Shown here piece by piece: positions 7,166 through 43,865 of a DNA stretch of 64,000 nt. How positions within the stretch are numbered: position 1 is the first letter of the stretch; every line of letters begins with the position of its first letter. The position numbers and the translations under genes were made by a program. Origin of the DNA: Dicyema japonicum (lineage: Eukaryota > Dicyemida > Rhombozoa > Dicyemidae); contig RDEW01000019.1 of assembly GCA_011109175.1 (NCBI GenBank), forward strand, positions 136,406 through 200,405. Reading direction: 5' to 3'. A model generated the notes under the pieces. That model did not search any database, was not told where the DNA came from, and worked only from the letters and a program-made list of their open reading frames with translations.

Positions 7166-7453
7166 TAAATTTTTCTTTGGGTAGAGATTGGTAAAATTCG
7201 ATAAGAGAAGTGTTGTTAAATAAAGCGTTCACCTGTAGAATTCAGTCAATGGCTTCACGTGCTTTGCAATAAGATGAATTCTTGTTGAAGCCATTGAGAT
7301 TCAATGTTCTAAATTTTTCTTTGGGTAGAGATTGGTAAAATTCGATAAGAGAAGTGTTGTTAAATAAAGCGTTCACCTGTAGAATTCAGTCAATGGCTTC
7401 ACGTGCTTTGCAATAAGATGAATTCTTGTTGAAGCCATTGAGATTCAATGTTC
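7166..7453. repeat. 144-bp tandem duplication, 2 units
   Basis: Units 7166-7309 and 7310-7453 are almost identical apart from a one-base indel at the left edge. Confidence 0.85.
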
Positions 7454-7570
7454 ATGAAACTCCATCTAATGGGAATTTGCTCTACTTTTTGTTTTGGATT
7501 ATGTAGGTTTTTTATTACAAAAACAATTAATTAAGTAACAAGACAATCAAAAAAATCCAGCTAATGAGAT

Positions 7571-7874
7571 AGAATGGCTATTTCCCCTGACAAGTGTCAA
7601 AGAACTTCTTTGAAACAGCCATTCGTTTTCCCGACGTTCATTGCTCATTTTAGAAAATATTGAATAAAGCGATCTTAGAAGGAGACCATCTTGGACCCGA
7701 AGACTCCGCTCGATTCACGACTAGAATGGCTATTTCCCCTGACAAGTGTCAAAGAACTTCTTTGAAACAGCCATTCGTTTTCCCGACGTTCATTGCTCAT
7801 TTTCGAAATTATTGAATAAAGCGATCTTAGAAGGAGACCATCTTGGACCCGAAGACTCCGCTCGATTCACGACA
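7571..7874. repeat. 152-bp tandem duplication of an R2-like C-terminal fragment
   Basis: Units 7571-7722 and 7723-7874 differ at a few bases. On the minus strand both match the C-terminal tail of the R2-like element at 43690-43850 (the …EWLF.RISLAVVRGN… block). Confidence 0.8.
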
Positions 7875-8056: not shown

Positions 8057-8388
8057 TATCCGACAGTCAACTGTTAAAATTAAACCTCAAAAGAGGCACA
8101 AAAATTAGATATTCATTGATATCCCTACACACGGAAATCTTTAGTAAAAGGCGAAAGATTTATGCGTTATGTGTAGAAAACAGAACAAAATTTTATGTCA
8201 AGAATCGAGCAGAATTTGTATTACATTATGATTTTATATATGATTACTGGATGCTTTAAGAATATAATATTTATAATAAAACTCATTTTGAATAAATAAT
8301 ATTTTATTAGTTATGGTAAATAATTATTTTAAATAATGAATCAATTTAATTCATTAATAATAATAATAATATTCCCAACTTCATCAAC
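8057..8388. repeat. Inverted duplicate segment, left arm (partner 23450-23770)
   Basis: Reverse complement of 23450-23770 at high identity. Together with 9455-10045 (partner 22852-23440) it forms one duplicated segment interrupted here by an RTE insertion. Confidence 0.85.
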
Positions 8389-8389
8389 A

Positions 8390-8634
8390 TGTACACTCCA
8401 CAGGGTTACCCATTATCACCTATATTTTTTGTCATATACCTTGAAGCTGCTTTACGGAAGTCAAAACCGATAATGGGTGAAAAGACAAACATTATTGCGT
8501 ATGCTGACGACGTGTACACTCCACAGGGTTACCCATTATCACCTATACTTTTTGTCATATACCTTGAAGCTGCTTTACGGAAGTCAAAACCGATAATGGG
8601 TGAAAAGACAAACATTATTGCGTATGCTGACGAC
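8390..8634 (+). repeat. 123-bp in-frame tandem duplication inside the RT
   Basis: 8390-8511 and 8513-8634 repeat the segment from TPQGYPLSP to the YADD motif, so the protein carries two YADD boxes. The junction contains GTAC, which is also the end of the target-site duplication. Confidence 0.85.
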
Positions 8635-9450
8635 GTAGACTTTACTTCAAATGACAAAATACCGCTCACCCGCTTGATGGAAGAAGTGTCTGGAAGACTA
8701 GCCGAATGGTTCCTAACAGTAAATCCGGACAAGACTGACGTAACTGAACTCAAGAGGGAAGAAACAAGGACAGAGGAGTACTGGCGCAAATGCAAAAAGC
8801 TTGGCTCCCTCCTAGGAGACCATGAAGAAATTACGAGAAGGAAAACCCTAGCACAAACTGCCCTCTCCAGATTAAAGAACATCTGGCTTCACAAAACGGG
8901 CCTTGACATTATAACAAAAACTCGATTATACAACTCGCTAGTGAATCCCATACTACTATATAACGTTGGTACCTGGGCCTGCTCAAGAAATGAACTGAAG
9001 AGGCTTAATGCGTTTCATAGAGACCAACTACGGCATATGATGTTCGAAAGAAGTGATACGAGGATGTCATCTAATCTTCTCTATAAGAGGACGAAGACCT
9101 CAGAAATTTCTAATGAGATTCTGGATACACGATGGAGGCTTTTCGGCCATATTCTGCGACTGGACCTAGATGCCCCCGCGAACGTAGCCATGGAGGATTA
9201 CTTCATGTTGGAGGCCCCCCGTTTCCGTGGTCGCCCAAGGACGACACTGGCAGTCGTTCTCGACGAGGACCTTAAAGAAATGGGACGGCATCTTGCAAGT
9301 GGAGAGGATCTGGACTGGTTGCGCGCTGCGGCTTTGAATAGGAGGAAGTGGATGAAACTAACCAGTGATTTGCTAACTCGTGTTGCACATGCTTTGTCAA
9401 GTCCTATGACATAGCGATAAGTGCTTATAATAATAATAATAATAATCAGC
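8390..9450 (+). mobile_element. RTE-like LINE, 5'-truncated insertion
   Basis: An open frame at 8389-9414 encodes the RT from the TPQGYPLSP block through the YADD catalytic motif to the C-terminal region (…LEEY/MEDYFML…FRGRPRTTLAVV…). Part of the RT is tandemly duplicated (8390-8634). The 3' end is gtgctta plus a (TAA)n tract. A 12-bp target-site duplication (ATCARCATGTAC, one mismatch) flanks it, and the paralogous segment at 22852-23770 shows the same site without the element. It is truncated 5' of the palm domain and lacks the endonuclease, so it is inactive. Confidence 0.9.
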
Positions 9451-10378: not shown

Positions 10379-10479
10379 TTATTATTATTACTTCCAGGAT
10401 CACTGGGTCAAAGAGAAAGAAATAGAAGGTTCTCAACTAACTAACTGATCCCAGACCGACAAGGGAGAGGACAAGTCCG

Positions 10480-11970
10480 GTGGAGTCAAGAATCCTTAAC
10501 AGCTCTTCTCATTGGACATGACATCGGCTCATAATTTCTGTATGACTGTAGATATTTCGGAATAGAGAGCAGCTCGGTAAACTAGCCTCCTTTAAGAGTT
10601 TCCGTTGAAATTCGATTAAGAGATTTTCTATGGGCTGGATTTTTTGGTCTGGTCCAATTATCCATATTGCGGTCTCCTCGAATGCGGATAGTTTCAATGA
10701 GGAGGATCGTAAAATCTGCATTGCCCACGAAGGACTTGCATAAGTCATCGTGGGTCGGATAAATTGTTCATAAATCGTGGCAAGGCCACCAGTTTGGTTT
10801 CTAAGTGTTTTTGAGAGCACTTTTAAAATTCTCATTTTCCTCAGTGCAGAAGTACTATGTTCTCAACATGTCGGATAAAGGTGAGTCCCTGATCGAAGGT
10901 GACTCCCAAAATCTTTGCTGTTTTTTAATAGGAATAGCCTCGTTCTTCATATAGATTTTTGGTTCGACACATAACTGTCTTTTGTAAGTGGTAAACAACG
11001 TGACAGAGGACTTTGTTGCTGATGCGTCGAGTCTCAGCTTTGAGAGCCATAGTTCCAGCTTGTCAAGCATTTGTTGAGCGGACTGAGTCTCTGATTGAAT
11101 GGTTCTGTCCTTGGAGGCAAGAATAATATCGTCGGCATAGGAGAAGATTAAGCAGTTTTCATTATAGGTTTGTGGCATGTCGTTTATGTAGAGATTGAAG
11201 AGGGCAGGTGATAGTGGGGATCCTTAATGGACTCCATTTGGTATGAGACGGGATTTTAACTTTATGTTATTGAAAATCACTTGCCCATGTCTCCCACTTA
11301 AGAAGTTGGCATTTTATTGTTTTATGTTTGGGTGGATGCATGTTTCGTAAATTTTCTCAGTAAGGAGTTTTCTTGAGACTGCGTCGAAAGCCTTTGTTAT
11401 ATCAACAGAGACCAAGTATGGAGTGACTTTCGATAATTTGATCTTTTTTTAATTTGTAAAATGATCGGATTATGATCACAGTTTCGTATTTCACTCTCCA
11501 TAAAATTTGAAGAAGCCAGAAGGGGAGAAGCGATTGAAACGTCAGGGGATGATGGCTTATCATTTTGTCTTGAGGAGGTTCTTGTGTGAAAGCTAGAGTC
11601 ACTTAGGATGCAAAAGGTTCCCAAGTCTTTGATTAGCATGTCTCCCCGCCTGTTTGACGTCTGACTTCTCAACCAGAGCAGGTGTTTTGTATTTAGGTCA
11701 CCGCAAAGAAGAACGTTCCTTAGTGAACTGATCGACGAAAGTTTTGGGCAAGTGGCTGATGATGAAGGAGGTAGATATGAATTGATCAGAATTAGACGTA
11801 ACCCTGGGAGTTAGATTTTTGTGGCCAGAATTTCGTTACTTTTAGGGTTTTGGAGACGGTTGTAGACGTATTTGGTGATATCTTCATAAGGGATCCCGTT
11901 TCGTATGATAGTTAGTAAGCCTCCCCCAAGTTTTCCACATCAATCTCTGCGGATAACTGATTAAAAATAT
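10480..11970 (-). mobile_element. CR1/Jockey-like LINE remnant: endonuclease and reverse transcriptase
   Basis: From 11960 down: the endonuclease block LGGGLLTIIRNGIPY, then a domain end with SPDVSIAS and HNPIILQI (11672-11397). RT motif A follows (TKAFDAVSRKLL, about 11390), then motif B (GSPLSPALFNLYIND), motif C (FSYADDIIL, about 11130), and the C-terminal part (KVLSKTLRNQTGG…IRPTMTYASPSWA, to 10509). Several stops and frameshifts break it. It is the most complete CR1-like copy here. Confidence 0.85.
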
Positions 11971-12269: not shown

Positions 12270-14240
12270 AATTCCATTATTGGACAAAGATGTGTCCTCA
12301 AAAATGTTAGTGTCTTTCATTTAATTATTAGAAAGTAATTTTGAATTCAGACATTAATGAATGTTCTTTGGGGCATTCAACATGTATCAAAACAAATTAA
12401 ATATAAATTTATACAAAGTTTTAATAAAAATTTGATGAGATATCTATCAGAAAATTCTACTAGGAATTAGAAACAATTCTTAAAATAACTTTTACGTACA
12501 ACACAACAGCACATGCTACAACCAATGAAACGGCGTTCGAAAAATTCGAGACGCTTATTTTGCAATCAACCGAAGGGATGGACGTTGAAGATAATTCAAA
12601 TGTGCATGGTACATTTTCCTTAAACTATGTTAGAAATAACGAATAACGTTGACCTAACTTTCTGTCCACCATACCTTAATTCATCCTATTTCAAAAAAAT
12701 GAATAAAAATGTATGTTCATCAGTCAAAATATGGCTTAAAATAAGAGATAAAATATTTTTATAATTAATTTTTTGGTTCGCATGGTAAAGGATTATGGAA
12801 CCCGTCATTAAGACTTAACCGTTTATGAACCAGCTTAAATTACTAATATTTTATAATCGCCTGTAAATATTAATAATTTATATACTCAAAGAACCTTACT
12901 TTTCAGTATCAGACGAGCCCACGCTTCGAAGAAATGAAACCTCAGCTTTAGTTGAGCAAGAGAATCGAAATGGCAACAAATGATATTACTAAAAATACAG
13001 TAAACATTTTGAATCTGCCATTTTTGGACTTTTTTGAGTATTCAAGTTAGCGGAGAAAATTGATTTTTAATTTAATAAGTTTTCTGTATTTGAGAATATA
13101 AGTAAATCAAATAAATAACATAGTAAGCCTAAGAGTTCCAGTTAGCCGCCGGGTTCCTTCAATTAAAAAGACCGAAAAAGCGATTTGGAACCTAGAATCC
13201 CCGAAGTTTCGATGAGAACATACTTAAAACGAACTTTCATCCAAGGTTATCTTTAAGGGTTTCGGCCTTAGTTGAGCCCGATCCTGGGTGATTAGATAAT
13301 TGAAATTAAAGAGGAGGATCACTTATTTGTCTCATTTGCTGTGGAGACGTCTCCTCGCCCCACAAAACCTAGTCCTTTGGATCAGTTCAGTGATCAAAAA
13401 GGTCACCAAGGATCCACGCGAGACGGGTGGCTTCGAGAGCGTGTCTTGATATCTATCGTCAGGAAGAATTAGTTTGGGGTAATTATCAAGATTAAAAAAG
13501 ATATTGGATTAAAATTCTTGTAATTGAAAAATTATTTGAATCAGTATTTAATCTTCTATTAAACCCAAATAGTAATAAAATGAACAACATTAACAATCAC
13601 ATGCCCAACGTTAAAATTTACTCATTTCACAGCGACAATTCTTTGTGAGGATGCATCTTCAAACTAAACTGCAATTAGAAAAGGCTTTAAAAATCATTAA
13701 GTACTCATAAAACTCATAGACAAGCTTAGGCATATTTAAGAGGATGTCTAGGAAAACTTGATTGTCTCAGAGACTCATTAATTGGTAAGAAACATTAGCA
13801 ATTTCAGAATACATTAATTAGCCAAATTGAGTGAACTATGATTGTGAAACAATAGCAACACAATGGACCAATTCACAATGGAATAATTAATGGTTCTTTA
13901 GTCTACAAATTCAGCAAAAATGAAAGTTTATATGAACCACACTTTAAGACAGTTTGAAATGAGTAGGATTTATTATTCAACAGAACCACGACTGACTGGA
14001 TTTATTTTAAAATTGATTAGTAAAGTGGAGAAAATCGTTTAAATCATATTAGTCCTGTCTGAACATGTTAATTAAAAGTTGATTTGAAAAAAAGTTAATA
14101 AAAATTTTATGATTAATTTATTTAAATTTAAATTAAAAAATTAATTTATTAATAATAATTATAAAGCGGAGAACCCATTAACAATAAAATATGGTTGCTT
14201 GGATCAATCTCCAAACGGTAACAGTATCTATCAACAATAT
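12270..14240. other. AT-rich interval with one R2-like fragment
   Basis: No gene recognised. At 13250-13480 (+) a decayed R2-like C-terminal region reads LFVSFAVETS… and ends in the …RERVLISIVR block. The rest is low-complexity AT-rich sequence. Confidence 0.5.
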
Positions 14241-14242
14241 CT

Positions 14243-16151
14243 ATGCAACTATTTCTATGTTACTTAATTATTTTATCGCCTCAACAGCATAGTAATTTGT
14301 CCGCAATACAAAAGCGTGAAATTTATTTTTTTGAAAATCATGATTATTACAGGTTAAAAAAGACCCGCCACCATGCAACCAAATATGTCGAATTTATCGA
14401 TAGTAACTTAGATGGTAAATGTGTAGGGAAGATCAACCCCCAAATTTGTGAAATCAAACTACCCACGTGATCGTTAGTCATTCCAACATTCCGAAATCCA
14501 TTACATAAAACAATGTACAACTCGCATGCTTATTTATCAGTAACAACGTCTCCGATGGATAGTAAACAAAATTATTCCAAAGTGGATTTTTTCCCAGACA
14601 AAGGGTTTGAAATAAAATTATTTAGAATTTCATTCGGCCAACCAATGATTTACTCAAACCCATTGTATCAACAGGTAATTAATATTTTGGATATTCAGGA
14701 CACATTCTACAATTTTCACAGTGAAATGCGCTACACACAAAGTCCAAGTTTGCAATACGACGACAACTACCAACGTTATTCCTCCTTATATTCACATTCC
14801 TTAATAGAAACGGTCTTTATGAGTAAATTATTTCAGGCCAATTGGCTTCTTGAAATCTACAAAACAGCTGAAGGAGTCAGTCTACCACGATGCTTTCTTT
14901 ACTCCAACTACAGAGGATTCTGCACTGAAAGCTATCATCCTCAAATGAATCAAGCATCGTTCGGAAAACTAATTCGTACAGTTTTTCCATTATTAAAAAC
15001 GAAGAGACTTGGAACGAGGTTTTATGAGTTTAGTATTGCAAGGGACACTCCAAATACCATTATTACGGAATAAAAATAAAAATTGGGTCAAAATTAAACA
15101 GGATAAAGGACGAATTTCAAACTCCTCAAAGACTTCAAGCATTTAAGATTCTCACTCAGTTGTTTATGTAAAATTTTTTAGGCCGAACTACAAGAACCCC
15201 TTTTTAAAAAAAGTTATTTTATTCGGAAAATCTGGATCGAATTTTTTGAACAAAAATACCGCCATGACAAGAAGAGTTTCAGGAGTTTCAACGGAAATGC
15301 CACCTTTCGGGCAAATTGACGTTAGAAAAATAACCGTAAATATTAACAAACTCCACGAACTCGTGAATATTTTTCAGAATCTCTACAGAAAACACTGCAA
15401 TGTAAAAATACATGAAAATCTCTAGGAAATCAAAGAAGCAGTGAATCAATTTAATTTCAAACTCGTGCCAACGTTTTGGACGGATTTTTGGGGAAATTTT
15501 GTAAAGAAAAGGTATTTTGCTGTTAATATTAGAAATTCCTTCGAAAACATGATAGAACTTGTAAATTCTGATGAGGTTGTGGATTATATATTCACTTCCG
15601 ATTGAATTTTATACCAGCATCTCGTTTCCTTACTGATTCCTGACATTTTAGAAGAAGCCCCATGTAGCTTTCGGAATTAAATTTTAGTTTCTCAAACCCA
15701 AAATATCAGAACATTTTCCAAATCTCTGGAGATCAAGCTATCCTCCGCCTGACGTCATGTGAGTTTAGCGAAAGACCTGTTTCTAAAAAGGTTGTCTTTT
15801 CCGAAGATTTTTAGATCAATGTGGTTTCTGGGTTTGGCAAAACGCTAAAAAGATATACTAAGCTTCAACACCTTTTTCAATCTACACAGGAGATTTTCAG
15901 TGATCAATCACTGCTCAGTGAAATGTGCTCAGACATCTCAAAAATTGACCTCGGAGAAATTCAGGTTATTACATTTTTTTATTGCAGGATCAATTGTACT
16001 GGATTTCAAACTGCAAGGCTGATTTGTACAGAAAATCCAAACTGATTTTATTACTGGACTTTCCCAAATCTCAAAATCGACCAATGGACCACGTGGTTGG
16101 AAGATGTTGTCAACATTGTTCTCGTACCATTCACATCAGAAATTGAGTTTT
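14243..16151 (+). pseudogene. RFX-family transcription factor, micro-intron gene with frame breaks
   Basis: The RFX winged-helix DNA-binding domain is clear (ANWLLEIYKTAEGVSLPR…NQASFGKLIRTVFPLLKTKR, then after an intron GHSKYHYYGI). The conserved B, C and dimerisation regions follow: NLYRKHCNEIKEAV, PTFWTDFWG, LVSLLIPDILEEAP, NIRTFSKSLE, GFGKTLKRYTKLQHLFQS, IDQWTTWLEDVVNIVL. Micro-introns fit at 14675-14698, 15019-15042, 15159-15181, 15402-15425, 15664-15687, 15791-15814 and 15965-15987 (23-24 nt each). Apparent lesions are a one-base mismatch at 15019-15042, TGA (15603-15605) for the conserved Trp before ILYQ, and one-base shifts near 15750 and 16040. These could be a decayed gene or sequence errors. 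The N-terminus is unclear; 14243-14470 may hold a first exon. RFX proteins bind X-box promoters, classically of ciliary genes. Confidence 0.85.
14675..15987 (+). other. Seven micro-introns of the RFX gene
   Basis: GT...AG segments of 24, 24, 23, 24, 24, 24 and 23 nt at 14675, 15019, 15159, 15402, 15664, 15791 and 15965. Five remove an in-frame stop or shift and restore RFX homology exactly. The 14675 intron is open and in-frame, so its splicing is optional. The 15019 one leaves a one-base mismatch. Confidence 0.7.
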
Positions 16152-17055
16152 AAAAAGCGGGGGAGCAACTAATGCTCAAATAGTCGGCCCACATGTAATT
16201 GTTAACATAAGTTAAGGTTCATAATTATTTGGGATTTGACCTTACGATCTTGTCTCACCTTTGGGTCCCTTCATTTGATGAGGTTATTTTTCGACGACTA
16301 CATAAAATATTTGGTCGAGAGCAAAATCGCAGAGATCAGGAAAACAACACTCATTGAGTTTATTACAGAAAATAGACAAATATTTTCATTCATTTATGTT
16401 AGATAAATTTAAATAATGAAAGTGGCCAAGGATCTCTTGAAATTGACCAAAATATTTGATAAAAATATGTAATTCATTTTTTTCTTAACTTTCTTAATCA
16501 GTTTTTTACAGTAAACACTAAACTCTCTTAAATAGATTGATAAGTTGCGGGACAAATAATTTTGTAACGTAACGCTTGGTTGCTGTGGATAACCGCTACT
16601 CTCTAAGCATATGTAAATATCCTCTATTCTGTATAATAGAAACGTAAGAACCTTGGAGGACGAAGGATATTGTTTCAAGCTTTTTTGAAATCCGATTCCT
16701 TAGATGACCCAGGAATTCGAGGTGTAAGGGGACTGGATGTTCGAATTCCAGCTGAACAAACAAAACATCCCCGAGTATTAACCGTTCTTGTATAGATTGT
16801 CACTTATCGTTTGACGTTAAGCAGACTTATCCTTATAACGCAATATTTCGACTTTTTGGGCAATCGTAAGTCATGTGTAATATCAACAGAAGCAGTCCAA
16901 CCCATGCATGTTTGTAATTATTTTATTATTTTTTAAAATTAAAATTGCCGCTGTTCGGACTGTGTGTACTATTTTTAGCCAAATTATTTGCTCGCCTGAA
17001 ACAGTTTCTTTTCTGAAGAAAAAACACCCTCTTATGTTAGACGATAAACACCCTC
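16151..17055. other. No gene recognised
   Basis: AT-rich. Near 16640-16790 the minus strand carries a short, decayed match to the R2-like C-terminal tail, similar to 2470-2600. Confidence 0.45.
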
Positions 17056-17325: not shown

Positions 17326-19939
17326 TTTTTAAGCACTCCCGGGAAATCAAAAATTAATTAGATTAATTAAGTTCCCCTTGTGCCACGTCCAGTATCCTCC
17401 CACACATCCTCTTCCATGTTCCATGTCCCACAGTTGTATGTCAGGACTGGAACCACGAATGTTTTATACAATTTTAGCTTTGTATTCGTAGTTATGCTCT
17501 TCTTAGAACGCCAGATAGTTAAGAATTTTTTATATGCAGCAGTGGAAAGGATTTTTCTGTGGGTAACATCTTCTGAGTCTCCAAGTAGTGAACCAACTTT
17601 TTTATGCCTTCTCCATGATTCATCGTAAGTGCGTACAACTCGTACAAGTTTTGTATATTCAGTTTTTTCTTGGTTGACAACTAAGAACCATTTAGAAAAG
17701 ACATTTGGTAAGTTCTTGAGAACGTGATGAAGAATTTCAACATCTTCAGAAACAAAGTCAAGATCGTCTGCATATATTAACTCGATTATTTTGTTGTTCT
17801 CAATTAAAGGCCTGAAATCTCTCAGTGCAGCCTCCAGGTAGATTATGAATAGAACTGGTGACAAAGAGTCTCCTTGCGGAATTCCACGTGAAGTATAAAA
17901 GAATTCTGAAGTAGTTTTTCCGAGTTTGGTTGCTAGTTGCGTATTCTGCAGTAGTTTTTGTATAATTTTGACATCATCCGTTGTTAGGAAGCTTGTGAGT
18001 ACTTCAAGAAGTTTGCCTCTATGAACCGAGTCAAACGCTCTGGACATGTCTATTCCGAGAACATCTATGCACTTTTTATATTTTTGGCATAGAGCACTTG
18101 ACCATCTGTGTGTCCAAATGACATCGGCAGTGGATCTGCCTGACCGGAAACCACTTTGTCCTGGTGACAGAAAATACTCCACCTTGTCTTTGATTCTTTC
18201 CAATGTAATAATTGACAAGATTTTTCGCAGCGTAGTTAGTAGGATGATTGGTCTTAGGTTGGAAAGGGGCCCTTTGGGTTTTCCCGGTTATTGCAGTGGA
18301 ATTAACCAACCCTTGCCAATGTCTAACGTAGTGTTTTCTTCAAATATTTTGTTGAGTATATTGGTAATGATTGTTACCAACTTCACTGTGGCATACTTTA
18401 TAAGTTCGGCTGGGATATTCTCTGGTTTTGCCGATCTGTCATTTTTCAATTTTTTAATTGCATCCAGTGTTTCTTGTGTATTTATTGGGATGTCCAAACT
18501 ATGGTTGACTTGTGCACCAAATTTATAGCCTATTTCGTTGTCCCAGTTGAGCATATGATAGTAATAAGCAGATATAGTAGCTGCTTTGTCCTTTTTATCG
18601 ATAATTATTCTGCCAAAGATGTCATTGATTATTATGGGGCTTGCACTCTTTTTCTTATTAATTAATTGAATAGCTTTGAACATTTTCACTCCATCTTTAT
18701 ATTTTTCAATGTCTTCAATTTGTTTTTCTATTTCTTTAGCCGTTAGGGATTTCTGAGTTTGCTTGATTTTTAATAATGTTCGGTTTCGTTGTTGCCGAAG
18801 TTCCTTGGCCTTTTCTGGAGACCTTGAGTTTTCTATCTTCAATCTCAAGGCTTTCTGGTTTTCTGATAGGACGCAAATATCATGATTGTAAAATTTACGG
18901 GGTTTTGTAATACTTCCCAACACATCACATGCTGTACCTTTTATCGACTTTGTGACTTTGTCCCAAATAATATGAACAGGTTTAGTTTCGTCGATATCAT
19001 TAAGTTCAAGATTTAGTTGATACGCATATTTCTGTTGAGTTGACTTGTCATGTAATAATTGGATATCATATTGCTCCTGCTTTTTATTGGAAGGTGTTTT
19101 CATTTGGTTATGGACTTTGTATAGTCCAATGCGAGTATGATCACTATTTGTCTCTAATCCTCCATATGACCTGGAGTCTACGAGGAGATGTTTGTGACCT
19201 CGTCTGCATAGTATGTAGTCAATTTGATTATATATTTTTATGTAATTTCCTTGCAAATCCTTCCTAGTTCCAGTCCACGTCGTCTTGTGTCTCGCTTGGT
19301 GACAAAATGCCGTATTGCACAAAAACAGATCCAAGGAAGTGCAAAAGTGGATTAATGCCATTCCGGGCGTGTTTCGCCGATTTCTTCCATGAGATCCGAT
19401 ACAAGTTTCTCCAGATCTGGCTTTCCCTGCTTTGGCATTCCAGTCCCCGGCAATTAAGCAAAAATATGAAGAACTGATAGTGTTGTAAACCCTTATGAGG
19501 GCGGAGTAGAATTCGTCTAGTTCTTCTGGATTGGCAGATGCCCTGATTCCAGTCGGGGCGTATATGTTGATGATTGTCACTGTAGAGTTTGGTTTGCTTC
19601 CCCACCAAAATTGCAGTACCGCAATCCTGTCTGTAACGACCCACATCCGAGATATACGACTATACAATGTGTGATGAATAGCAAATCCAAGTCCATAATG
19701 ACGACACGTTGTTGGAAGGGTAATCAAATGATAATTTCCCACCCGCATGCATGTGTTGTCAGTTATTTTTGTTTCCTGTAGGCAGCATACTGATACCTTA
19801 TAGTGATCCAAATCAAGTTTCTTGTATGTTGGATTGAGTGCTCTTACATTCAGGGTACCCACAGAAAAAGGGCAGTTAGATATTAGACGTGAGAAAGACA
19901 TATGTGCTATAGAGGGACGTCACCACCTCAACCAAAAAA
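17326..19939 (-). mobile_element. RTE-like LINE, nearly complete copy (AP-endonuclease and RT)
   Basis: One long minus-strand frame runs from ATG 19901 to 17367, interrupted only by an in-frame TAA at 18288-18290. The N-terminal endonuclease shows VGTLNVRAL, LQETKI, NIYAPTG, AGDWNAKAG, TTWTG…NQIDYIL and SDHTRIGL. The RT shows SNLRPIILLTTLRKIL, QSGFRSGRSTADV, GIDMSRAFDSVHRGK, GIPQGDSLSPVLF and IYADDLDF. The C-terminal region has lost about 0.4 kb: NCGTW is joined out of frame to the distal …GTWKRMCGRIL segment. A 13-bp target-site duplication (AATTTSTCCTATT) flanks it at 17313-17325 and 19940-19952. The endonuclease nicks target DNA and the RT primes on it. The TAA sits where IPLPK would be read, consistent with AAA to TAA. 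The youngest LINE in the window. Confidence 0.92.
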
Positions 19940-23449: not shown

Positions 23450-23770
23450 GAATATTATTATTATTAATGAATTCAATTGATTCATTATTTAAAATAATTA
23501 TTTACCATAACTAATAAAATATTATTTATTCAAAATGAGTTTTATTATAAATATTATATTCTTAAAGCATCTAGTATTCTTATATAAAATCTTAATGTAA
23601 TGTAAATTCTGCTCGATTCTTGAAATAAAAATTTCGTTCTGTTTTCTACACATAACGCATAAATCTTTCGCCTTTTACTAAAGATTTCCGTGTGTAGGGA
23701 TATCAATGAATAACTTATTTTTGTGCCTCTTTTGAGGTTTAATTTTAACAATTGACTGTATTAATTTGAC
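23450..23770. repeat. Inverted duplicate segment, right arm (partner 8057-8388)
   Basis: Reverse complement of 8057-8388. The minus strand holds a short open frame (…ISLHTEIFSKRRKIYALCVENRTKF…) found in both arms. No family recognised. Confidence 0.8.
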
Positions 23771-41947: not shown

Positions 41948-43865
41948 ATGTTTTCCGCCAAGTTAATTGCCTTTGATAAATGTGGAGGAGGAATTCGTCC
42001 TATTGCTGTTGGGTTTGTTTTTCGTCGACTGGCTTCTAAACTTGCTAGCAGAGCAATCCTTCCGATGCTTGTCAAACAACTGCGACCAACCCAAGTAGGG
42101 GTCGGTACTCCTGGTGGATGTGAGGCGGCGGTTCATGCCGTTCGGATGTTTACTGGAAACAGAACGAACATGCCTTGTGTGGTCCTCAAGATTGACATAA
42201 AAAACGCCTTCAATACCATACGGCGCGATGTAATTTTGGAAGATTGTCTTACCCATTACCCGTCTATATATAATTATGTTCATTGTTCGTATGGAAAACC
42301 GTCCAGTCTTGTACATGGGAAATACTTCATTCCCTCGTCGTGTGGAGTTCAGCAAGGAGACCCACTAGGACCGGCATTGTTCTGCCTCGGTGTCGACCGT
42401 GTCATGAGATGCCTTACTACTCCGCTGAACGTGTGGTATTTGGATGATTGCACCCTGGGAGGTCATCCTAACAATGTATATGACTGTCTACAGAGATTAC
42501 TAACCCAATTGGATACGCTTGGTTTAAAGCTAAACGCATCCAAATGCGAAATTGTTAATTATGGATTCTCCCGATATGAATGGAATCGAATCCTATTAAT
42601 GTTTCGGGGATTATTCCTAAAATATCGGAAATCGAGCCGGATTATTTGGAAATACTTGGATGCTTTCTGGCTGAAACTGGAATTAACGACACTCTGTTGG
42701 CTAAAGAACAGCAACTAAGAAAAACTTTTTTACGCCTTGGGATGCTGGATGCACATACCTCTCTTTTTCTCATAAAAAACGCTTTATTCACGCAGAAATT
42801 AAATTACGTCCTTCGAGGAGCTCCATGTTACCTGAAAATGCAACAACTCGGGGCGATTGACTCCCTATTCCGGTCTACGACCGAACGTATTACTAATGTC
42901 GAATTCGACGAACAAGGATGGGAACAAGCAACCTTGCCCGTTCGCTTTGGTGGACTCGGAATTCTCTCACCATCTGATTTACACCCGGCATATCAATCCT
43001 CATTGGACTCCAATCAGAATTTGATCATGATGATTCTCCAGCTCCCATCAGAGTCGTCAAAGATCGAAGATTTGGTACACCCTAAAGTCAAACAACTCGG
43101 GCAGAGAGACCTTTATGAGTCTGTTTGCGAGGATAAATACGAGAGGCTTTTGAAAATATCTAACCAACACCGACGAGCCTGTCTTTTAACTGCAAGATGC
43201 GAGTGGAGCGGGGCTTGGATCAATGCCCTACCCATTGGAAACGTGGGAACTCACCTAGACGATGAAACGGTCCGCACCGGAGTCTCCATCAGACTTGGAT
43301 TGAAAGTTTGTCAACCCCATGAGTGCCGATGCGGCCGGAAGGTCGACTGCTATGGACATCATGCCCTTTCTTGTCGAAAAAGCGCAGGTCGATTCGCTAG
43401 ACACAAGGCTATAAATGAAGTGGTGAAGCGCGCCCTCGAGTTGGCGGGATACCCATCCATTCTAGAGCCAACGGGCTTGAGTAGGGATGATGGGAAGCGA
43501 CCCGATGGAATTACTGTCTTCCCCTTCTCTCGGGGCAAATGCTTAATTTGGGATGCTGCCTGTACTGACAGCTTTTCCCAGTCGAAACTTTTGAGGTCGG
43601 CAATGAAAGCGGGAGAGGCGCCCGTTTATATGAAAACTCAAAAATAAAGAAATACAGCAGCCTCCTAAACCGTTTCCATGTACAGCCAGTGGTCGTCGAG
43701 ACGAGCGGAGTCTTTGGCCCCAAGACGGTCTCTTTCCTTAGAGCACTTGGGTGTCTATTGACCAAAGCCTCGAGGGAGCGTCGGGAAACCGAGTGGCTTT
43801 TCCAAAGGATATCCCTGGCAGTAGTCAGAGGTAACAGCCACTCGATCATATCCGCTGGACTTTAG
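41948..43865 (+). mobile_element. R2-like retroelement: RT plus restriction-like endonuclease, best copy
   Basis: Starts inside the RT (GGGIRPIAVGFVFRRLASKL), then VGVGTPGGCEAAVHA, motif A KIDIKNAFNTIRRD, motif B SSCGVQQGDPLGPALF, motif C VWYLDDCTLGG. One frameshift near 42600 moves to the second frame: QQLRKTFLRLGMLDAH, PVRFGGLGILSPSDL, the zinc-binding CRCGRKVDCYGHHALSC, then KRPDGITVFPF and WDAACTDSF of the restriction-like endonuclease. A second one-base shift near 43625 leads to KYSSLLNRFHVQPVVVETSG…RISLAVVRGN and a stop at 43863. 5'-truncated after the stop at 41924. The endonuclease would cut target DNA and the RT (YLDD) prime from it. Confidence 0.9.

Follow-up and report, generated by a model that had tools for sequence, protein, structure and literature searches.

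Related systems and the source genome

Tiny introns are already in print for dicyemids, as far as the accessible text of three reports goes. There the mean intron length is given as 26.2 +/- 1.9 nt for 16 introns in seven genes of Dicyema acuticephalum (PMC2222250), the median as 27 bp in Dicyema sp. (PMC6543705) and the mean as 38.2 bp in D. japonicum, whose 67.5-Mb genome with 4.1% gaps and a GC content of 36.7% was assembled into 377 scaffolds (PMC6736024). A mixed-stage transcriptome of D. japonicum is reported in the last of these. The dicyemid literature that we found contains, within its accessible text, nothing on RFX genes and, as far as pseudogenes are concerned, no description of the RFX copy considered here. 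RFX1/2/3 factors combine the domains RFX_DNA_binding (PF02257) and BCD_RFX (PF25340). Unprocessed (duplicated) pseudogenes form a general class of copies that keep their introns, have a sister copy elsewhere, carry stops and frame breaks, and do not share flanks with that sister.

The window analysed here is a stretch of 64,000 nt (C94:136406-200405; GC 37.5%) within a 64.67-Mb assembly of 191 contigs, which was the genome searched. It contains an RFX1/2/3-type gene body at 14555-16425 on the plus strand, with a start codon inferred from a second copy on contig C170. We consider this region to be very probably an unprocessed, intron-bearing duplicated pseudogene of a dicyemid. Like the dicyemid genes described in the accessible text of the three reports, it has short introns; unlike them, these introns lie in an apparently dead copy and, at 21-24 nt, are below the published means. 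Like RFX1/2/3 factors, the C170 copy contains both domains, and the closest relatives with a telling name, among the 120 top-scoring of 3177 database hits, are animal RFX1/2/3 proteins, although its product is short (535 aa, when most of the relatives listed have 550-850 aa); the window copy lacks a continuous frame over PF02257 and PF25340. The animal RFX identity proposed in the first-pass annotation, which had been made from the letters of the window, holds, with RFX1/2/3 as the closest type. Unprocessed pseudogenes are matched in all the features of the class named above and no difference from them was seen, the dN/dS of 0.18 between the copies making the loss young relative to the duplication.

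The source is almost certainly Dicyema japonicum, judged by the sequence of one gene. An actin gene built from contig C132, with three introns of 28, 25 and 25 nt, encodes a product of 376 aa that is 100% identical, at 100% cover, to D. japonicum actin B9ZYV1_DICJA and 95% identical to D. acuticephalum actin2. The dicyemid origin suggested earlier is thus confirmed by an actin from the same assembly. The published genome size and GC content of D. japonicum also agree with the size of this assembly and the GC content of the window, although the numbers of scaffolds (377) and contigs (191) differ, so that the two assemblies need not be the same. Profile alignment of eight actin loci yielded 22 introns, all of 22-28 nt save one of 78 nt, so introns of 21-24 nt are ordinary in this genome. 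It is plausible that gene-prediction programs set to the usual minimum intron length would fail here. Two pairs of actin loci have the same introns and equal match scores, namely, C94:965106-966273 with C94:1001667-1002834 (inverted) and C137:1183609-1184823 with C137:1197299-1198513, and either the genes were duplicated recently or the assembly is the cause.

Ultrashort introns in the window copy

The window copy contains 11 introns of 21-24 nt (mean 23.1), at least four more than first noted. Introns 1 (14605-14625, 21 nt; 23 nt in C170) and 2 (14675-14698, 24 nt; 25 nt in C170) lie beyond the region of RFX homology and are supported by the paralogue only. Intron 3 (14813-14836, 24 nt; 25 nt in C170, where it was placed by profile alignment) precedes an exon at 14837-15018 that encodes most of the RFX DNA-binding domain; its stretch 14837-15016 matches the Pfam RFX_DNA_binding profile with an E-value of 7e-19. 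It is followed by intron 4 (15019-15042, 24 nt). Intron 5 (15159-15181, 23 nt; 24 nt in C170) has an alternative start at 15162 (20 nt) in the same frame, which the profile chooses at some settings. Introns 6 (15402-15425), 8 (15664-15687) and 9 (15791-15814), each of 24 nt, were placed by profile alignment, as was the 22-nt C170 counterpart of intron 7 (15512-15532, 21 nt). Intron 10 (15965-15987, 23 nt) measures 22 nt in C170, and intron 11 (16195-16216, 22 nt; 23 nt in C170) lies past the span considered in the first-pass annotation. A further GT-AG segment of 22 nt at 15087-15108 (26 nt in C170) is doubtful, the stretch being more likely coding. All these features are on the plus strand. 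The first-pass annotation had listed introns 2, 4, 5, 6, 8, 9 and 10, all seven with correct positions and lengths, and had missed introns 1, 3, 7 and 11.

The bare number of such segments is not above chance. Between 14555 and 16400 there are 12 GT..AG segments of 23-24 nt versus a null mean of 7.6, and 49 of 500 random sequences reach 12. Thus, the earlier list of segments is by itself no evidence; the evidence is their position. We aligned the DNA to a profile built from 19 RFX proteins of animals (alignment A1) with a script that permits introns, frameshifts or both. The profile covers the window from 14843 to 16331 and recovers five of the seven previously noted introns exactly. For the segment at 15159 it gives other borders (15159-15194 or 15162-15181, depending on the run), and the segment at 14675 is outside its reach. 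Splicing was weighed against indels by swapping the GT..AG rule for each of the 256 dinucleotide pairs. In the window, GT..AG introns score 82 bits above frameshifts only and rank first; the runner-up, AA..TT, gains 66 bits from 501 possible segments, against 46 for GT..AG. The same rule ranks first out of 256 in C170 as well, with 91 bits above frameshifts only and 57 bits for the next pair. Between the two copies, 1 of 43 aligned sites differs at intron ends, 53 of 204 in intron interiors and 249 of 1614 in exons, the conservation of the ends being partly built in, since the introns were chosen as GT..AG.

All 11 GT/AG pairs are still in place in the window copy, and the segments interrupt conserved coding sequence with GT-AG ends and lengths within about 20-30 nt, as dicyemid ultrashort introns do. 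By homology and by comparison with the paralogue, the segments are true intron positions of the spliceosomal type, in line with what had first been proposed. We infer that they were, and are, spliced at the RNA level. The introns of the window copy are now, with high probability, relics within a copy that lacks a full protein.

A second copy of the gene

The RFX DNA-binding domain has matches at no fewer than three genomic locations, namely, C170, the window and C45. The last corresponds to a third, divergent RFX gene (C45:263300-269500), with the DNA-binding domain at 2540-2763 of this segment and a 26-nt intron where the window copy has intron 4. At the DNA level, the C170 copy shares 82% identity with the window copy over 1909 of 1928 query bases. 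The shared block spans 13753-16451 (plus strand) of the window and C170:1572925-1570120 (minus strand), with 79.7% identity over 2812 columns by blastn, and comprises an upstream or UTR region and the body of the RFX gene. Searches with either flank show that the match to C170 stops at the block borders, 13753 and 16451. When the window was compared with 24.9 kb around the C170 copy (flanks of 9.6-12.5 kb), the RFX block was the sole colinear match. A further 18 matches are scattered, none of them colinear, and are taken for dispersed repeats; one is long (window 10452-11409 versus C170:1564046-1564990, 970 columns, 87%) and the rest are short. As this homology does not extend beyond the borders of the block, the two copies belong to separate loci rather than being alleles, and a mixture of species or haplotypes was rejected on the same grounds.

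The 11 GT-AG introns occupy matching places in the two copies. Their retention in both means that the copy was made from DNA rather than from spliced RNA and, together with the unshared flanks, marks a dispersed duplicate formed at the DNA level. We propose that a block of about 2.7 kb including the RFX gene was copied in this way to a second place, that purifying selection would have acted on both copies through most of their divergence, and that the window copy would then have fallen out of frame by point and single-base changes, presumably losing its function, while the C170 copy reads through; the order of these events is our reconstruction.

Removal of GT-AG segments of 22-26 nt from the C170 copy leaves a stop-free frame of 535 aa, in which both RFX_DNA_binding (2e-32) and BCD_RFX (1e-81) score over the Pfam cut-off. 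The 120 top-scoring of 3177 database hits share 38-43% identity with this protein; those with a name are RFX1/2/3 proteins of animals or RFX-type proteins without further assignment, and none of the 120 is a near-identical entry from a dicyemid. With introns only, profile positions 12-469 are open in C170 (score 401, 10 introns, 0 stops), versus a score of 156 with 5 stops for the window copy. The C170 copy is thus likely to be intact, with splicing predicted from its sequence. Relative to the window copy, which keeps the older-looking frame, it has slipped by one base in the linker that follows the DNA-binding domain (about C170:1571450). This slip could be a lesion or an error, and it can be absorbed by splicing in two ways, as a 26-nt extra intron or as a 53-nt intron; when the costs of frameshifts and introns are both set to the same moderate value, C170 aligns to the profile with two frameshifts. 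A 12-intron model of C170 gives one open frame, but is held doubtful, because its fifth intron cuts a stretch resembling mollusc RFX coding sequence and would remove the piece SPLN, including the invariant S95 and L97 of alignment A1.

Lesions of the window copy

According to the first-pass annotation, removal of its seven segments rebuilds an almost full RFX protein. After their removal, stops remain in all three frames, and the RFX-like pieces of the spliced product sit in different frames. When introns and frameshifts were both permitted, 9 of 16 penalty settings left the window copy with four frame breaks and three in-frame stops. The stops are at 15603-15605 (TGA; a sense codon in C170), 16151-16153 and 16181-16183, and the single-base breaks are near 15043 (directly after intron 4, inside the DNA-binding domain), 15750 (15749-15751), 16023 (16022-16025) and 16073 (16072-16075), all on the plus strand and, apart from the C170 comparison, placed by profile alignment. 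The remaining seven settings give five breaks with three stops (three settings) or, with the cheapest frameshifts, 30-32 breaks with one stop (four settings). If frameshifts and stops are forbidden, a single exon, 14843-15019, is all that is left of the window copy. Direct comparison with C170 adds two stops, 16404 and 16410, in the unconserved C-terminal tail, and two self-cancelling pairs of single-base gaps, 14717/14722 and 15887/15892.

These lesions are disabling and beyond the reach of splicing, as in unprocessed duplicated pseudogenes. The window copy has no complete in-frame RFX DNA-binding domain, which is interrupted by the break near 15043, and no continuous BCD_RFX (B-C-dimerisation) region, which is interrupted by the three premature stops and the other three frame breaks. 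The copy that splicing would make whole, as first proposed, is not this one but the one on C170. The alternative that the first-pass annotation had named for its own reading, that frameshifts explain the RFX homology better than splicing, fails as an either/or choice: introns are needed, as the 82-bit gain indicates, and frameshifts are needed too.

A code in which TGA is read as tryptophan, considered on account of the TGA at 15603, was dropped, the standard code being sufficient for C170 and the remaining two stops being TAA and TAG. Coding sequence before 14555, whether an upstream exon or the tail of an upstream gene, was rejected as well. The stretch 14352-14554 has no codon-position bias, with 9, 5 and 5 mismatches at the three positions before a TGA at 14468 and 6, 6 and 5 after it. 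The region before 14555 is taken for UTR or promoter on the basis of this test for 14352-14554 and of inspection by eye for the earlier stretch.

Selection and the time of loss

Over 515 codons, dN/dS between the window and C170 copies is 0.18 (bootstrap 0.13-0.24), with dN 0.097 and dS 0.54; within the DNA-binding domain it is 0.11. This low ratio means that selection probably acted on both copies during most of their history and that the loss of the window copy came late, as far as the comparison of the two sequences can tell. A copy that had been neutral since the duplication would be expected to have a far higher dN. Assuming equal rates and that all non-synonymous change stems from a neutral phase of the window branch, this phase would occupy at most about 0.097/0.27 = 36% of the branch. 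The two copies differ modestly in how many invariant RFX residues they retain: 126 of 191 for C170 against 113 of 188 for the window copy. Within the DNA-binding domain, N25, E27 and H42, which all 19 reference animal RFX proteins share, are still present in C170 and have been lost from the window copy; C170 in turn lacks some invariant residues that the window copy keeps, e.g. Q20 and P278.

The apparently rebuilt gene is thus a relic on the preferred reading, and the gene to study sits on C170. The apparently working and the probably dead copy form a matched pair with 11 introns of 21-25 nt, which lets one ask which bases of a 23-nt intron stay. So far, in this pair, the ends are kept and the interiors drift, although these ends were also the basis on which the introns were chosen.

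Alternative explanations

Three other explanations were weighed. The window copy might be read as a short RFX protein with the DNA-binding domain only, i.e. a truncated but functional regulator, which would show one way in which an intron-rich gene can become a truncated regulator without introns. A frame starting at 14555 (or 14513) is open to 15073 whether introns 1-4 are removed or not, the ORF 14513-15073 (186 aa) covers most of the DNA-binding domain, and dN/dS in that domain is 0.11. Introns 1-4 of the window (14605-15042) are 21, 24, 24 and 24 nt long without in-frame stops, whereas introns 1-3 of C170 are 23, 25 and 25 nt. Nevertheless, the frame is gone before the GNSKYHYYG stretch, which we take to be the wing of the winged helix, and the invariant residues N25, E27 and H42 are changed. 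Stop-free 3n introns are also expected from relaxed constraint: 3n introns with a stop number 3 of 8 in the window copy versus 11 of 13 in working genes, a difference that is not significant (Fisher 0.056). Selection for stops in the 3n introns of working genes was considered and rejected, the observed 11 of 13 comparing with a shuffled mean of 9.0 and being reached by 876 of 5000 shuffles, which is not significant. On balance, the sequence makes a truncated regulator very unlikely.

Slightly less probable again is a working RFX gene with ultrashort introns, in which the lesions are assembly or sequencing errors. If they were errors, the dN/dS of 0.18 and the complete set of GT/AG pairs, with conserved intron ends, would fit a copy in use and speak against a pseudogene; at least three of the four frame breaks also lie, by eye, in or beside short runs of one base. 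On the other hand, the three stops are base substitutions, and four frame breaks within about 1.5 kb are many compared with the eight actin loci (about 1.1 kb coding each), which have two frame breaks and one stop in total. With these lesions the actin control is not perfectly clean, and frameshift and stop costs were somewhat dearer there than in the RFX runs. Both actin copies on C94, the contig of the window, are without frame breaks or stops. The changes in the window copy at three DNA-binding-domain residues that are invariant in the 19 animal RFX proteins and kept in C170 likewise speak against errors. A processed or frameshifted RFX relic without introns, in which the insertions of 21-24 nt are ordinary indels, does accommodate the real frameshifts of the window copy, but its probability is negligible, being refuted at the sequence level by the lead of GT..AG over the next dinucleotide pair (16 bits in the window, 34 in C170), by the opening of C170 through splicing alone and by the conservation of intron ends (42/43) against interiors (151/204), partly built in as the latter contrast is. 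An unprocessed duplicated pseudogene remains the preferred reading of the window copy.

Other elements in the window

Two genes for U5 spliceosomal RNA, at 8082-8188 (minus strand; 82.8 bits) and 23634-23740 (plus strand; 79.9 bits), lie in inverted orientation about 15.5 kb apart. They are inside a repeat whose two copies are 95% alike, and the 501 nt surrounding the first gene match the genome at 17 sites in full or in part, counting the stretch itself. A scan that covered 10 of the 12 window ORFs of at least 150 aa found reverse-transcriptase ORFs at 8389-9411 (plus), 17370-18218 (minus), 18291-19901 (minus; an endonuclease domain) and 41948-42715 (plus), probably from LINE-like retroelements; one pair of them lies shortly behind the RFX block. 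Short tandem duplications of 127-152 nt with 98-100% identity are present at 7166-7453, 7570-7873 and 8387-8636.
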